A stretch of DNA of 64,000 bases from Syntrophomonadaceae bacterium (GTDB taxonomy: Bacteria; Bacillota; Syntrophomonadia; Syntrophomonadales; Syntrophomonadaceae), in contig JAAYCK010000098.1 in assembly GCA_012729835.1 (NCBI GenBank), positions 1 through 64,000 on the forward strand, read 5' to 3'. Shown here piece after piece: positions 9,750-42,142 of this stretch (its first letter is position 1; each line of letters opens with the position of its first letter). A program made the position numbers and the translations under genes. Under the pieces are notes generated by a model that did not search any database, was not told where the DNA came from, and was given only the letters and a program-made list of their open reading frames with translations.

Positions 9750-9778
9750 TTGACAAAAATTAGATGGCCGGTTAAATT
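9750..9778 (+). promoter_or_regulatory. Sigma-A-like promoter of trp operon
   Basis: TTGACA (9750-9755), 17-nt spacer, TAAATT (9773-9778). Confidence 0.7.
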
Positions 9779-9800
9779 AATAATAGACAATTCTATATGA

Positions 9801-9842
9801 CGAGATGAGATTAGATGAGTAGAGGAGAACGAGACGAGATGA
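9801..9842 (+). promoter_or_regulatory. Putative TRAP (MtrB) RNA-binding site in trp leader
   Basis: Nine GAG/TAG triplets mostly spaced by 2-3 nt: 9801, 9806, 9811, 9816, 9821, 9824, 9830, 9835, 9840. Confidence 0.85.
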
Positions 9843-9861
9843 GCAGGTTGAAGTCATTTCT

Positions 9862-9890
9862 GACCAGCACATTATCGTGTGCTGGTTTTT
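9862..9890 (+). terminator. trp leader attenuator (intrinsic terminator)
   Basis: ACCAGCACA-TTATCG-TGTGCTGGT 9-bp stem followed by T-run. Confidence 0.85.
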
Positions 9891-10165
9891 CAATTTTCAC
9901 AAGGCAAAATTATCAGCGAGGAGAGGGAAGCCTATCTTCCTTCAGGACCGGATATGCTTCCGGCTGCTTTTCCATGCCGGTAAATACTCAATCATTCTGC
10001 AATAGCACCACTGCCAGCCAGGGACTGCGCCGATGGCGTAGTTTATCTTCTATCTAACGCTTCTTTTTATTTTTTCACACGAACAATTTTATGAGTCATC
10101 CTGGTCGTTTCTGTGCTGATGCGGCCATTGATCACTTTATTTTTCATGAGAAAGGACTATTTATC

Positions 10166-11188
10166 ATGTTCGATTATTATCTTAAAACCGTGGTAGGGGG
10201 AGAATCCCTGAATCAGAATGAAGCCTACGAGACAGCCCGTATGCTGCTCCATGACAATATACCTGAAGTAAAGGCGGCGGCTTTCCTCACGGCCATGCGT
10301 ACCCGCAAGGAAAGGGCTTCTGAGCTTTCTGGGTTTGCGCAGGCTCTGTATGAAGAAGCCGTGACGGTAGAGAGTGATTCGGAATTATTGGATACCTGCG
10401 GTACCGGTGGTGATGGTCTGGGGACCTTCAACATATCCACTACCGCTGCCATTGTTGTGGCCAGTTGCGGGGTATCCGTCGCCAAACACGGCAACCGTGC
10501 GGTTACCGGCAGCGTGGGCAGTGCCGATGTATTAGAGACCCTGGGCGTCAATATCGAACTGAGTCCGGATGAGGCCTGCAGTATGCTGGATAAGGTGGGG
10601 ATTACTTTCCTGTTTGCTCCCCATTATCATCCTATTATGAAGGCAGTTGGCCCGCTGCGGCGTTCGTTGGGGGTAACCACTATCTTTAATTTCCTGGGCC
10701 CGTTAATCAACCCCTTTTCTTTGAGTTATCAGGTAATGGGGATATTCGATCCTGACCTGCAGGAGGCGATCGCTACTACCCTGACCTGTCTGGGGCGCAA
10801 GCGGGCTCTGGTGGTATACGGCGAAAACGGCATGGATGAAATAAACCCGGCTGGTATTACCGAGATCTATGACACTAGCCTCCTGGGGAAGCAGCAGTAT
10901 CGCCTGGACCCGCTTGAGCTGGGTTTGGAACTGTACCCGTTGGAGTCCATAAAAGGCGGAGACCGCGAGACCAATGCCCGCATCCTGCAAGGGGTTTTAT
11001 CCGGCGAATCCGGGCCTTACCGGCAAGCGGTGCTGCTGAATGCGGCCGCCGCACTGATGGCAGCCGGAAGAACTGCCGCCCTCGGGGAAGGAATGGTGGT
11101 GGCCGCCGAGGCCATCGATTCAGGCAAATCCATTCGGACCTTGCGCAACATGGTCAGCTACAGCCGGGATAGGGTTTTGGTGAATTAA
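10166..11188 (+). CDS. trpD: Anthranilate phosphoribosyltransferase
   Basis: DTCGTGGDGLGTFNISTTAAIV, KHGNRAVTGSVGSADVLE. Confidence 0.96.
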   Translation: MFDYYLKTVVGGESLNQNEAYETARMLLHDNIPEVKAAAFLTAMRTRKERASELSGFAQALYEEAVTVESDSELLDTCGTGGDGLGTFNISTTAAIVVASCGVSVAKHGNRAVTGSVGSADVLETLGVNIELSPDEACSMLDKVGITFLFAPHYHPIMKAVGPLRRSLGVTTIFNFLGPLINPFSLSYQVMGIFDPDLQEAIATTLTCLGRKRALVVYGENGMDEINPAGITEIYDTSLLGKQQYRLDPLELGLELYPLESIKGGDRETNARILQGVLSGESGPYRQAVLLNAAAALMAAGRTAALGEGMVVAAEAIDSGKSIRTLRNMVSYSRDRVLVN

Positions 11189-11354: not shown

Positions 11355-12134
11355 GTGTTGGAGCGGATTGCGGCGGCTAAACGCGAGGAAATAAAAGAAC
11401 TAAAAGCCAAACTGGACATAACCGGGATAACTTCCCGGGTGGACGCTATCGACCCGCGCCCCTTTTTACAACGGGCAGACGGTCATATGGCGGTTATTGC
11501 CGAGGTAAAAAAGGCTTCGCCGATCAAGGGTTTGTTGTGTGCTGATTTCGATCCGATCAGCCTGGCCGGCTCCTATCAGAAAAACGGTGCCGGGGCGCTA
11601 TCGGTCATCACCGATAGCGGATTTTTTCAGGGCGATAAGGACTACCTGATTAGGGTTAAATCGATGATTGATCTGCCGGTCTTGCGAAAGGATTTTATCA
11701 TTGATGCCGTTCAATTATATGAATCAGTATTGCTTCGGGCAGACATCGTCCTGCTTATTGCGGCCATGCACGATTACGAAAGCCTGCTGAGTCTCAGTGA
11801 AAAGGCCCGCGAACTGGGACTATACACCCTGCTGGAGGTGCATGACCGGGACGAACAGCACCTAGCGCATGATCTTCCGGTGCAGATGGTGGGTATCAAT
11901 AACCGTGATCTCAAGGATTTTACGGTAAGCCTTAGTACCAGTTTACACTTGATCGATGGGATGCCGCCCGGGGTCATCCGGGTAAGTGAGAGCGGCATCA
12001 GCAGCCAGCATGATCTCAGTACTCTGCAAAGGGCAGGATTTCATGCCGCCCTGATCGGTGAAGCGCTGGTATCAGCTGCCGATCCCGGATTGCGGCTGCG
12101 GGAGATTCTGCAACAGCACAGGGAGGTGTCCTAA
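11355..12134 (+). CDS. trpC: Indole-3-glycerol phosphate synthase
   Basis: IAEVKKASPIKG, LRKDFIIDAVQLYES, GINNRDLKDF, SESGI. Confidence 0.96.
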   Translation: MLERIAAAKREEIKELKAKLDITGITSRVDAIDPRPFLQRADGHMAVIAEVKKASPIKGLLCADFDPISLAGSYQKNGAGALSVITDSGFFQGDKDYLIRVKSMIDLPVLRKDFIIDAVQLYESVLLRADIVLLIAAMHDYESLLSLSEKARELGLYTLLEVHDRDEQHLAHDLPVQMVGINNRDLKDFTVSLSTSLHLIDGMPPGVIRVSESGISSQHDLSTLQRAGFHAALIGEALVSAADPGLRLREILQQHREVS

Positions 12135-12761
12135 ATGACTTTGGTCAAATTCTGCGGTATAACCCGCGTGGAAGAAGCCTTGATGGCTCAGCGCCTGGGG
12201 GCCTGGGCCATCGGAGAGGTCTTTGCCCCCTCCCGGCGCCAGATAGATGCGGAGCAGGCGGCGGCTATTAATTATTCCCTGGATGGAAGCATCGCTAAGA
12301 TCGGTGTATTTGTCGATGAGGATCTGGCGAAGGTTTTGGATATCGTACGCTACTGTGCCCTGGATATGGTGCAGCTGCATGGGGAGGAGCCGCCGGAGTA
12401 CCTTGATGAACTGCCAGTACCGGCTATCAAAGTATTCTGCCTTTCCGGAGCGGTAGACGAAAAAGAAATCAGACGATGGCGACCGTGGGCTTACGCTTTT
12501 GACACTTATAGCCGGGCGGAATACCGCGGAGGCAACGGGCACAGCTTTAACTGGGAGTGGCTGGAATCAATCCGGGGTCATGAAAGAATGATACTGGCAG
12601 GTGGATTGAATCCGCAAAATGTTGGCCCCGCCATCAGAAAAATAAAACCGCTGGCGGTAGACGTATCCAGCGGGGTAGAGTATGCGAGCGGGGGCAAGGA
12701 CCCCCAACAGATGGAGCAATTTTTCAAGCAAGTAAGGGAGGCTGACAGGTATGAATCCTGA
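12135..12761 (+). CDS. trpF: Phosphoribosylanthranilate isomerase
   Basis: [44 protein letters not shown]. Confidence 0.95.
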
Positions 12762-13935
12762 TAATAGAGGATACTATGGCAGATACGGCGGACGTTTCGT
12801 TCCCGAGACCCTGATCCCCGCTGTGGAAGGGATTGAGAAAGCCTATCGTGAACTGCAGGCCGATCCGGCATTTCACGAGGAGTTCAGCTATTATATGCAG
12901 AACTATGTAGGCCGTGAATCGCCCTTGTATTATGCCAGGCGTTTAAGTAACGAATTGGGAGGAGCCCGCATTTACCTGAAACGCGAAGACCTCAACCATA
13001 CCGGATCTCACAAGATCAACAACACCATCGGTCAGGCCCTGCTGGCCCGCCGGATGGGCAAGAAAAGGCTTATTGCCGAAACTGGAGCCGGCCAACATGG
13101 GGTGGCTACCGCAACGGCAGCAGCAGTACTGGGCATGGCATGTACTGTCTATATGGGTGCCAAGGATGTGGAGAGGCAGCGCCTCAATGTATTTCGCATG
13201 AAGATGCTGGGAGCCGAGGTCTGCGAGGTAAAAAAAGGCAGCGAGACTTTGAAGGATGCGACCAATGAGGCCTTCCGCGATTTTATCGCCAGCTTCGAAT
13301 ACTCACATATGTGTATCGGCTCGGTGGTGGGCCCGCATCCCTATCCCATGATAGTACGTGATTTTCAGTCAATAATCGGGAAGGAATTAAGGGAGCAATT
13401 TCAAGCCCTTGAGGGTCGTCTCCCCGATATCATCCTGGCCTGCGTCGGTGGCGGCAGCAATTCCATGGGCGTGTTCTATCCCTTTCTGGAGGATGAGGTA
13501 GACCTGATTGGCATTGAGGCGGGGGGCAAGAGTGACTTGCCTGGTGAGCACTGCATCACCCTCTCACAGGGTACCGATGGAGTGCTGCATGGAGCATTCA
13601 GCCGTTTGCTGCAGGACGAACATGGCCAGATCTTGGATACCCATTCGATTTCCGCCGGCCTGGACTACCCCGGAGTAGGTCCGGAACATGCCAGTCTGCG
13701 GGAGAGTAAGCGAGTTCGCTACGTCAGTGTCAATGATGAGGAAGCCCTGTCGGCCTTCCTGAGACTAAGCCAGATCGAGGGGATCATCCCGGCCCTGGAG
13801 AGTGCCCACGCCGTGGCGTACGCTATGAAAATCGCCCCCGGTCTGCACCCGGATACGGCTTTGGTAGTAAACCTGTCCGGCCGGGGCGACAAGGATGTAG
13901 AACAGGTGGCCCAGTTATTGGAGAGTGGGAGGTAA
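12751..13935 (+). CDS. trpB: Tryptophan synthase beta chain
   Basis: [48 protein letters not shown]; 11-nt overlap with trpF. Confidence 0.98.
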
Positions 13936-13940
13936 TAACG

Positions 13941-14732
13941 ATGGGAAGTTTACGCGACAATCTAAAGTCACTGCAAGACAAAGGTGATACTGCGGTGATC
14001 TCATTTATAATGGCCGCTCTGCCCGATGAAAATCTTTGCCTGGATTGTATTCGGGCTCTGGAACAAGGCGGGTGCGATGTACTGGAATTAGGGGTTCCAT
14101 TTACCGATCCTCTGGCTGACGGTGAGGTGATCGAACGTTTTCATCACCGGGGGACGGAGCAAGGGCTCAATCTGAGCAAATGTCTCGATTTTGCAGGCAA
14201 GGTGGCGAAGGTAAGTACAATGCCGCTGGTACTTTTCTGTTATTATAACCCCATTTATAAAATGGGCTGGGATAAATTCGTAGCCGAGGCTTCCTCCCTC
14301 GGGATTCAGGGGCTTATCGTGCCGGATGTACCGCTGGATGAAATGGAACTGCTCCAGTGCGATGCCATCGAACCAATTCCCATGGTGGCTCCCAGCAGCA
14401 GCGATGAACGTATGCAAAAGGCGGCTGAGCAAGACCCGAGCTTCATCTACTGTGTTTCTGTCCGCGGCGTGACCGGCGTCAGAGGAGAACTACCTGAACA
14501 GGAGATTAGGGAATACCTGGGACGGGTGAGGAGTTTCAGTACTGCCCCACTGGCGCTGGGTTTCGGCATCTCGAGGCCGGAACAGGTGAAAATATTCCGG
14601 GGTTCAGCCAACGCGGTAGTTGTTGGCAGCCATCTGGCTCGGACCATTGAGGAATACTCGTCCCGGCCCCACCTGCTGCCAGGTGAATTGGAGAAGATCA
14701 TACGGGGTTTGAAACAAGCCGGTCTGTCCTGA
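13941..14732 (+). CDS. trpA: Tryptophan synthase alpha chain
   Basis: VLELGVPFTDPLADGEVIE, LVLFCYYNPIY, GLIVPDVPLDE, GFGISRPEQV. Confidence 0.96.
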   Translation: MGSLRDNLKSLQDKGDTAVISFIMAALPDENLCLDCIRALEQGGCDVLELGVPFTDPLADGEVIERFHHRGTEQGLNLSKCLDFAGKVAKVSTMPLVLFCYYNPIYKMGWDKFVAEASSLGIQGLIVPDVPLDEMELLQCDAIEPIPMVAPSSSDERMQKAAEQDPSFIYCVSVRGVTGVRGELPEQEIREYLGRVRSFSTAPLALGFGISRPEQVKIFRGSANAVVVGSHLARTIEEYSSRPHLLPGELEKIIRGLKQAGLS

Positions 14733-14755: not shown

Positions 14756-15592
14756 ATGCCTTTTATCCTGGCAGCCAAACATGATGATATACAAGATTCT
14801 GTGATAAGAGTAAAGACCGGACAAGGTGAACTTGCGATAGGCGAAGGTAGCTGCACCATGATTGCCGGGCCTTGTGCCGTGGAGTCCCGCGAGGCTTATT
14901 TAGAGATAGCTCTATTGCTTATGGAAACCGGTGTGAATCTGCTGCGCGGGGGCGCTTTCAAACCCCGGACCTCTCCCTATTCTTTTTCCGGTCTCGGGTT
15001 AGAAGGCCTGAAGATCCTGGCTGAAGCACGCGAGATTACGGGCTTGCCGGTGGTGACCGAGGTACTGGATCCTCGTGACCTGGATAATGTAGCGTGTTAC
15101 AGCGATCTGGTGCAGGTGGGAAGTCGCAATATGCAGAATTTCACCCTGCTCAAGGAAGTCGGCCGCTGCAGCCGGCCGGTAATACTAAAACGTGGACTGG
15201 CCTCGACTATTGAGGAATGGCTGCTGGCTGCAGAGTATATACTTAATGCCGGCAATGATCAGGTTATCCTTTGCGAGCGGGGTATCCGGACCTTTGAACA
15301 GATGACTCGTAACACGATCGATATTGGAGCAGTAGCCCTGATCAAGGAATTGTCTCATTTACCGGTTCTAGTCGATCCCAGTCATGCTACCGGTCGTCGT
15401 TCCCTGGTGGCACCGGTAGCCCGGGCAGCTATAGCCGCCGGAGCCGATGGGTTAATGATAGAGGTACACCAGCGGCCGGATGAAGCCTTATCGGATGGGG
15501 CACAGTCACTCACGCCCCAGGGGTTTGCCGTCTTGGCCAGGGATATTGGCCGCCTGGCTTGCCTGAGCGGGAAGGAGTTTACGGCAAATTAA
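14756..15592 (+). CDS. aroF: 3-deoxy-7-phosphoheptulonate (DAHP) synthase
   Basis: MIAGPCAVESREAYLEIA, RGGAFKPRTSPYSFSGLG, LILKRG-like VILKRGLAST, VDPSHATGRR. Confidence 0.95.
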   Translation: MPFILAAKHDDIQDSVIRVKTGQGELAIGEGSCTMIAGPCAVESREAYLEIALLLMETGVNLLRGGAFKPRTSPYSFSGLGLEGLKILAEAREITGLPVVTEVLDPRDLDNVACYSDLVQVGSRNMQNFTLLKEVGRCSRPVILKRGLASTIEEWLLAAEYILNAGNDQVILCERGIRTFEQMTRNTIDIGAVALIKELSHLPVLVDPSHATGRRSLVAPVARAAIAAGADGLMIEVHQRPDEALSDGAQSLTPQGFAVLARDIGRLACLSGKEFTAN

Positions 15593-15670: not shown

Positions 15671-15796
15671 TGTAGGGGCGGATTCTATATCCGCCCGTGC
15701 CCATCCCGGATTGTAATAGGGTGGATATGGCCGCTCCTTGCCATCCGTGGCACCGCGGCACTAGTCCATCCCTGGACGTCGGAATCCGCCCCTACA
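15671..15796. repeat. 126-bp MITE-like element with 15-bp perfect terminal inverted repeats
   Basis: TGTAGGGGCGGATTC (15671-15685) and GAATCCGCCCCTACA (15782-15796); left end also holds GGGCGGAT-tctat-ATCCGCCC. Confidence 0.8.
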
Positions 15797-15825: not shown

Positions 15826-17985
15826 ATGAATAGGCTTAACCACGAATCATCTGAGTTCAGCTCCCTGAATTATACAAGCCAGGGGAGTATAGATATAGAG
15901 CGCCGGGTAGAGAGTATCCAGGTGCAGGGGGCATGTAATCACATCCTGGATAACATAGACAGCTGCCGGGGAGCCCTGTTTTCCAGCAGCTATGAATACC
16001 CTGGCCGCTATACTCAATGGGACATCGGATTTGTAAATCCGTGTCTGGAGTTGCGTAGCCAGGGACAGGATTTCACGGTTTCCGCCTTGAGCGTACGAGG
16101 TCAGTCTCTCTTAGGAATCATCAACAGTAAGCTATCAGAACTCTCTGAACTCGAATATTTGGTATCTGGAGCAGACAGCATACAAGGCCGGGTACGCAAA
16201 TCTGATTCCTTTTTTGTTGAGGAAATGCGCAGCCGGCAGCCTACTATTTTTACGGTTATTAGAGCGGTAAAGGAGCTGTTTGCTTCATCAGAAGATCGCT
16301 TTCTCGGGCTTTACGGAGCATTTGGTTATGATCTGGTTTTTCAGTTTGAACCAATGGAGCTTTGTCTGGAAAGGGAGGCCGATCAGGCCGATCTGGTGCT
16401 ATATCTGCCTGATGAGTTGGTGGTAGTGAACCACCGGATGGAGAGAGCTTATCGCCTAAGCTACAGTTTCCCGGGGCTTCCGGTGAGTGGAGATTTAAAT
16501 GAGCCAGTTGAACTGGCTGGCGACCTCAGGACACCCGGTGACCCGGTACTGCCCCAACACCAGTATGGACGCTACGCCAGCATCGCCCGGGATGCTCTGG
16601 ATTACTTTGCCCGGGGGGATCTCTTTGAGGTGGTGCCTTCCCAGACTATCTATGAAAGATGTTTAATCCCACCTTCACAGGTATTCAAGTCGCTTAAGAA
16701 GATAAACCCCAGCCCATATGGATTTATTATCAATCTGGGCAATGAGCATCTGGTTGGTGCTTCACCCGAAATGTATGTAAGAGTAGAGGGCCGCCGGGTT
16801 GAGACCTGTCCGATCTCTGGAACGATCAAGCGGGGAAAGGATGCTATCGAAGATTCGGTAAGGATAAGGGAACTGCTGAATTCTTTCAAGGACGAGGCTG
16901 AATTGACGATGTGTACTGACGTAGATCGCAATGATAAATCCCGGGTCTGCCAACCCGGCTCGGTAAGGGTAATTGGCCGCCGCCAGATCGAGATGTATTC
17001 TCATCTTATTCATACGGTCGACCATGTAGAAGGGATGCTGTGTTCCGAGTTTGATTCACTCGATGCTTTTCTGAGTCATATGTGGGCTGTCACTGTCACC
17101 GGGGCTCCGAAACGGGCGGCTATCAGGTGGCTGGAACATAATGAAGACTCGGCCCGGGGCTGGTATGGCGGAGCGGTAGGTTTTCTTAGTTTTAATGGTG
17201 ATCTTAATACTGGGCTTACCTTAAGGACTATCCGCATTAAAAACGCTGTCGCCCAGGTACGGGTGGGAGCTACCTTGTTATATGACTCAATACCGGAGAG
17301 CGAAGAGGCCGAGACCTATCTAAAGGCCGCAGCCATGCTGAAAGCCCTGCGGGTGGTCGGGGAGGAAGCGGAGCCGCTTAGTTCAGGAGAACAACGAGGC
17401 CAGGGTAAAAAGTTACTATTGGTGGATCACGAAGATTCCTTTGTCCATACCCTGGCCAATTATTTTAGGCAGACCGGAGCTCAGGTTCAGGTGCTGCGGG
17501 GACCGCTGGCCCGTTGCGTGCTCGAAGCTGGCGAGAACTTTGATCTGGTTATTCTTTCACCGGGTCCAGGGCGGCCTGATGAATTTGCCCTGAAACAGAC
17601 TATTGAGCTTTGTCTGCATCGCAGCATTCCGATTTTTGGCGTATGTTTGGGTTTACAGGGATTGGTCGAATACTTTGGCGGCAGCCTGGGGCAATTAGAC
17701 TATCCTCAACACGGAAAGACCAGCAGGGTCAGGATATGCGGAGAGGGACCTATTTGGCAGCATCTGCCGCAGGAGTTCACGGTGGGACGTTACCATTCAT
17801 TGTATGCCAGTTCGCTGCCCGATTGCCTGACGGCCAGTGCTGTTTCCGAGGACGGGGTGGTCATGGCGGTAGAACACGTCGACATGCCAGTGGCCGCGGT
17901 ACAATTTCATCCGGAATCAATCATGACTGCCAGTGATAATAACGGTTTGCGCCTAATCGGCAATATCGTGGAATATCTAAGCTAA
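15826..17985 (+). CDS. trpE(G): Anthranilate synthase, fused component I-II (TrpE-TrpG)
   Basis: TrpE part: FEVVPSQTIYER, GASPEMYVRVEGRRVETCPISGTIKRG, DEAELTMCTDVDRND; glutaminase part: GVCLGLQGLVEYFGG, VQFHPESI. Confidence 0.94.
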   Translation: MNRLNHESSEFSSLNYTSQGSIDIERRVESIQVQGACNHILDNIDSCRGALFSSSYEYPGRYTQWDIGFVNPCLELRSQGQDFTVSALSVRGQSLLGIINSKLSELSELEYLVSGADSIQGRVRKSDSFFVEEMRSRQPTIFTVIRAVKELFASSEDRFLGLYGAFGYDLVFQFEPMELCLEREADQADLVLYLPDELVVVNHRMERAYRLSYSFPGLPVSGDLNEPVELAGDLRTPGDPVLPQHQYGRYASIARDALDYFARGDLFEVVPSQTIYERCLIPPSQVFKSLKKINPSPYGFIINLGNEHLVGASPEMYVRVEGRRVETCPISGTIKRGKDAIEDSVRIRELLNSFKDEAELTMCTDVDRNDKSRVCQPGSVRVIGRRQIEMYSHLIHTVDHVEGMLCSEFDSLDAFLSHMWAVTVTGAPKRAAIRWLEHNEDSARGWYGGAVGFLSFNGDLNTGLTLRTIRIKNAVAQVRVGATLLYDSIPESEEAETYLKAAAMLKALRVVGEEAEPLSSGEQRGQGKKLLLVDHEDSFVHTLANYFRQTGAQVQVLRGPLARCVLEAGENFDLVILSPGPGRPDEFALKQTIELCLHRSIPIFGVCLGLQGLVEYFGGSLGQLDYPQHGKTSRVRICGEGPIWQHLPQEFTVGRYHSLYASSLPDCLTASAVSEDGVVMAVEHVDMPVAAVQFHPESIMTASDNNGLRLIGNIVEYLS

Positions 17986-41745: not shown

Positions 41746-42142
41746 TGTCCCTGCCTTAAATTATTGCGAATATTTAAACTTCTTATACAAAAAAGGATTT
41801 GCATCTATTTCATTAGAATATTACAGGTAATGAGTTTGATTGCTGGTCGAGTTCGTGGTTCGCCGGTGTAAGTTTTGGACTAATTCATATTATTTGGATA
41901 TGAATGGTTAAAAAATTGTTTTGCCGGGGGACTTATTGGTGTCTTCAGGGGGGGTGATTGAAGATCACAACAGCAACCTCAGGTTGCTATACTTGGTGTT
42001 GGAGACTATCTGCACCATGGGGAAGTTATAGTAGAGTAGAGTAGAGATTATTTAAATTTAAGGGGGGAGCTTCCCTAATCAGGATCGGATATCCTTTGAA
42101 CGTTTTAGGGGGTCTCCTTAAAAATGGAGGGAGAATAGAGAA

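Follow-up and report, generated by a model that had tools for sequence, protein, structure and literature searches.

The trpDCFBA-aro-trpEG operon of this Syntrophomonadaceae bacterium is, judging from sequence comparison, very probably controlled by a TRAP-dependent transcription attenuator that has been inherited from the start of trpE, while trpE and trpG themselves have been lost from the front of the operon. The leader has been studied within the window, i.e., the whole analysed DNA stretch of 64,000 nucleotides, and its parts and the operon genes all lie on the plus strand. The original prediction of a TRAP-type attenuator in front of the trp operon has thereby gained support from an intact TRAP gene, an array of triplets above chance expectation and competing RNA structures. 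The finding would place TRAP regulation outside Bacillus in a compact arrangement, with a single TRAP site that is expected to act on one gene twice, at translation initiation and through premature termination. In addition, it offers a traceable case of a regulator that outlives its own gene, with the trpE attenuator remaining after the replacement by trpEG, and related genomes supply a comparative series of Bacillus-like leaders, intragenic leaders, fossil leaders with two sites and fossil leaders with one.

Architecture of the Leader

The leader begins with a sigma-70-type promoter (9750–9778), in which TTGACA (9750–9755) and TAAATT (9773–9778) are separated by a 17-nt spacer; it has been recovered as predicted, both by direct reading and by scan, and agrees with the consensus at 10 of 12 positions. 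Transcription is inferred to start at about 9785, leaving ∼17 nt before the first triplet of the predicted TRAP-binding array. The array (9802–9843) has been identified from the sequence and by triplet scans and consists of nine non-overlapping GAG/TAG (KAG) triplets starting at 9802, 9807, 9812, 9817, 9822, 9825, 9831, 9836, and 9841. The triplets at 9822 and 9825 abut, and consequently at most eight of the nine can be used at legal spacing. The irregular spacing arises because the array encloses, near its centre, GAGGAG (9822–9827), which is the Shine-Dalgarno sequence of a short ORF and, in relatives, of trpE; the array is conserved in all Syntrophomonadales leaders read.

Two mutually exclusive structures follow. 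The antiterminator (9838–9873) has its arms at 9838–9849 and 9862–9873 and overlaps both the array and the terminator, with pairing between 9838–9841 and 9870–9873, 9843–9844 and 9867–9868, and 9846–9852 and 9858–9865. The intrinsic terminator, comprising hairpin and T-run (9862–9890), has a 9-bp core (9863–9871/9878–9886) followed by TTTTT upstream of Trp-biosynthesis genes, and the terminator scan has reported it at 9862–9887 with 11 pairs. All three elements had been predicted and are present, with a displacement of one base: the nine triplets had been placed at 9801–9842 and the antiterminator at 9837–9848/9861–9872, each one base too low.

The array exceeds what is expected by chance. Its longest chain of triplets at exact period numbers five, against at most four in any of 200 Markov-randomised versions of the window, and its loose chain numbers eight, against at most seven in these versions; the second-ranking site of the real sequence reaches a chain of five. 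Across the 3.13 Mb genome, five triplets at an exact 5-nt period occur at only two places, the trp leader and the start of trpB2, both of which adjoin Trp-biosynthesis genes. Together with the presence of mtrB, this restriction to two sites makes TRAP attenuation of the operon a well-supported reading of the sequence. The trpB2 site lies outside the window (L069:1501-1532; G000:C141:9090-9121), where about seven triplets overlap the Shine-Dalgarno sequence and start codon of a TrpB-like gene, and a TRAP-like site at this position is found in at least seven relatives as well. Elsewhere in the window, TAGTAGAGTAGAGTAGAG occurs at 42029–42046, ∼100 nt 5′ of an acyl-CoA-dehydrogenase-like gene (42143), and probably represents no TRAP site but a simple repeat.

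TRAP and Anti-TRAP

The gene on whose presence the original prediction hinged, mtrB, is intact in the genome (G000:C89:13617), located between dnaE- and pfkA-like genes (neighbours named by reading the sequence). Its 78-aa product, TRAP, scores 137.8 bits with Pfam TrpBP and 139.4 against an NCBIfam equivalog cut-off of 117. The residues aligned to T25, T30, K37, D39, Q47, T49, H51, S53, K56, and R58 of B. subtilis TRAP, which make contact with Trp and RNA, are all identical. Anti-TRAP (RtpA), which had been proposed for the same search, has no match in this genome and nothing above the cut-off among 60 relatives, with the B. subtilis control being detected. The sub-threshold matches have been rejected: they are short and fall nearly all in frames of ∼400 aa resembling the DnaJ zinc domain, which the anti-TRAP query itself resembles.

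Folding and Covariation of the Proposed RNA Switch

The pairs of the terminator are kept in 144 of 144 cells from 18 genomes, with two double changes. For the antiterminator, 84% of cells are kept and ten carry double changes, compared with a shuffled mean of 3.7 and none of 500 shuffles reaching ten, counts that are inflated by the relatedness of the sequences; the antiterminator also clearly exceeds versions slid along the leader in pairing and covariation score. In folding calculations, the antiterminator has a probability of 0.85–0.99 as long as the 3′ end of the growing transcript lies between 9874 and 9882, and it loses once the right terminator arm has been transcribed. At equilibrium the free leader already prefers the terminator (0.78–0.83), and the switch must therefore be kinetic. 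The proposed comparison of folds with and without the array blocked has come out as expected for attenuation, in that holding the array unpaired in silico raises the terminator probability from ∼0.8 to 1.0. Within these models, the folding behaviour is what TRAP attenuation needs. The folding of the whole leader relative to shuffles (z −0.92) is not exceptional, and whole-leader stability is uninformative as evidence.

In the mechanism that we infer, which extends to the binding of TRAP, the response to tryptophan, in vivo termination and any effect of translating the short ORF, plentiful tryptophan would lead Trp-loaded TRAP to wrap the array (9802–9843) on the nascent RNA. Bound TRAP would block the antiterminator as well as the Shine-Dalgarno sequence and ATG of the ORF, and the hairpin at 9863–9886 would then terminate transcription ∼280 nt 5′ of trpD. 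With scarce tryptophan, TRAP would be off, the antiterminator would form first and readthrough would result, and readthrough may be aided by a ribosome that initiates at 9839 and masks the terminator. One may also suppose that this last contribution is the main one, such that ribosomes translating the ORF keep the terminator within it from acting, TRAP acts by covering the Shine-Dalgarno sequence and ATG, and the RNA antiterminator is secondary. The positions of Shine-Dalgarno sequence and ATG in the array and of the terminator in the ORF, found throughout the order, would agree with such ribosome exclusion, but the antiterminator has been preserved through compensatory changes, the spacing between Shine-Dalgarno sequence and ATG is long (11 nt), and the ORF is disrupted in the congener G001, whose operon presumably still works. 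We regard ribosome exclusion as the principal mechanism as unlikely.

Probable Origin of the Leader From the Start of trpE

The original prediction had stated that no Trp-rich leader peptide exists, which is literally correct but overlooked an in-frame ORF of 72 codons (9839–10057) that takes its ATG from the last TRAP triplet, passes through the terminator and has one Trp codon near its end. An ORF running from the last-triplet ATG through the terminator is present in most attenuator-type relatives. In all 12 examined Syntrophomonadales relatives that keep trpE as the first gene, the ATG of full-length trpE lies within the array: the array includes the Shine-Dalgarno sequence and supplies the ATG through its last triplet, and codons 8–17 harbour the terminator, whose T-run ends at codon 16–17. 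Several of these relatives have no alternative start bearing a Shine-Dalgarno sequence. As ATG, frame and terminator position equal those of the trpE start in relatives, the window ORF is best read as the 5′ stub, or fossil 5′ end, of the lost trpE. In L083, whose stub is the best preserved, the alignment with trpE spans 46 aa (E 1.8e-7) and extends past the terminator; in the window itself, the similarity of the stub to trpE is confined to the first ∼19 codons, with a non-significant E-value. Against Pfam the stub has given no match above cut-off, and a search for stub homologues elsewhere in the family has returned significant matches only to trp leaders and trpE starts. The conclusion that the attenuator was ancestrally built into the start of trpE, and that the window keeps the switch together with a trpE stub, is thus strongly supported by sequence comparison. 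In the ancestor, the element would have been the trpE translation start together with the opening 17 codons of that gene; later, trpE-trpG would have been lost from the front and a fused trpEG acquired at the end instead, with attenuator and stub remaining.

The alternative is an ordinary attenuator of the Bacillus type located in a 5′ UTR, in which the ORF at 9839–10057 would be an accident devoid of evolutionary or mechanistic significance. The frame is interrupted in the congener, no close relative is suited to a selection test of the window ORF, and dN/dS of the stub is near neutral in two genera (0.64–0.94 over the whole ORF in g21, 0.95 in g6), all of which would fit an accidental frame. 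Genera g9 and g13, however, show dN/dS of 0.28–0.50 over the whole ORF, and an accidental frame would leave unexplained both the coincidence with the trpE start in 12 of 12 trpE-first relatives, several of which lack any other start with a Shine-Dalgarno sequence, and the trpE homology beyond the terminator in one stub. We therefore consider the accidental-ORF explanation very unlikely and retain the origin from trpE. In the congener G001 (L032), one base is missing from the left arm of the terminator, which shifts the frame of the stub and weakens the arm.

All stub ORFs have their Trp codons grouped towards the C-terminus, and GL(E/K/R)RW is conserved in several. Such a cluster could point to an E. 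coli-type attenuator based on ribosome stalling at a leader peptide, or to a T-box. Yet the Trp codons lie far 3′ of the terminator, so that a ribosome stalled at them cannot decide whether it acts; the element is accounted for by mtrB and the array; and Rfam has given neither a T-box nor a Trp-leader match. We hold stalling or a T-box to be extremely improbable. The only Rfam match in the window is a 5S rRNA (1–76), truncated by the window edge, and a T-box or other known RNA family has accordingly been rejected as a candidate. In L033, L034, L035, L056, and L083, the 3′ ends of the stubs encode a C-terminal H-L-(S/G)-Y-V-x-N-H-(D/Y)-G-G-L-(E/K)-R-W with mostly synonymous differences and no clear relation to the C-termini of trpE or trpG. 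Taken with the dN/dS values and the broken frame in the congener, the terminal Trp codons suggest that the stub may have retained a peptide function in some genera only. A broader proposal would hold for the whole order: TRAP would act as combined translation repressor and terminator switch in the first codons of trpE, the ribosome would also suppress the terminator, and the stub, through its C-terminal Trp codons, would be a leader peptide adding tRNA-Trp sensing without anti-TRAP. Taken as a whole, we consider this proposal quite doubtful.

Comparison With Known TRAP Systems

The trpEDCFBA leader of B. subtilis has a TRAP attenuator with 11 triplets and a 5′ stem-loop, its terminator lies in a 203-nt UTR before trpE, and a remote hairpin regulates translation of trpE by sequestering its Shine-Dalgarno sequence (PMC3913778, PMC11255114). 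In common with it, the window system has a TRAP gene, a (G/U)AG array near the 5′ end, a trp operon as target, and an antiterminator that overlaps the last triplets and is mutually exclusive with the terminator. In the window, by contrast, an ORF has its Shine-Dalgarno sequence and ATG within the array, the terminator lies in coding sequence, there are nine triplets, of which no more than eight are usable, the first intact gene is trpD, no 5′ stem-loop before the array appears in the predicted folds, and anti-TRAP has not been found in the genome. The predicted match to the B. subtilis logic hence applies to the attenuator itself and is incomplete with respect to the ORF start in the array and the terminator inside the ORF, both inherited from the lost trpE.

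At trpG, trpP, and ycbK of B. subtilis, TRAP sites over the ribosome-binding site have been described as translation blocks only (PMC11255114). Predicted TRAP sites similarly cover the Shine-Dalgarno sequence and start codon of trpE and trpD in relatives and of trpB2 in this genome; unlike in those B. subtilis genes, a single TRAP site would here serve both the translation block and termination. In other orders of the same phylum, five clear cases (L127, L131, L132, L136, and L144) resemble the window in having a TRAP array followed by a terminator, but their trpE Shine-Dalgarno sequence and start codon come after the terminator, as in Bacillus. An earlier description of the intragenic trpE layout has not been found in a literature search covering few subscription papers.

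A second predicted TRAP site, with 5–10 triplets, covers the Shine-Dalgarno sequence of trpD in 25 of 27 genomes, with four triplets there in the congener and one in the window, where the site has been lost. Several relatives thus combine two predicted TRAP sites in a single leader, of which only the attenuator persists in the window.

Operon Genes and Replacement by trpEG

As predicted, the first intact structural gene is trpD (10166–11188) and not trpE. It is followed by trpC, trpF, trpB, and trpA (11355–14732; named by reading their translations, not by family search), a DAHP synthase (aro) gene (14756–15592) and, as the last gene, a fused trpEG (15826–17985; TrpE clade 3, 719 aa), which replaces the lost trpE-trpG. 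The fused TrpEG family TIGR01815 exceeds its cut-off in nine of 64 genomes scanned, all nine of them stub-type, and is absent from every trpE-first genome scanned. A tenth genome with trpEG is G001, where the gene is split into two frames; this split and the stub frameshift reflect either decay or assembly error. No other anthranilate synthase component I has been found in the window's genome among the matches listed. The best trpD tree needs two changes, and a tree with one stub-type clade is not rejected (p-AU 0.448), which is compatible with a single loss of trpE and does not prove it.

Between the DAHP synthase gene and trpEG, an inverted repeat, GTAGGGGCGGATTC...GAATCCGCCCCTAC, occupies 15672–15795 and is possibly a small mobile palindromic element that sits where trpEG entered the operon. 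The contig L061 (PWLF01000118.1), labelled Bacteroidales, carries TRAP arrays and a trpD 58% identical to that of the window, and is probably a mis-binned Syntrophomonadales contig.
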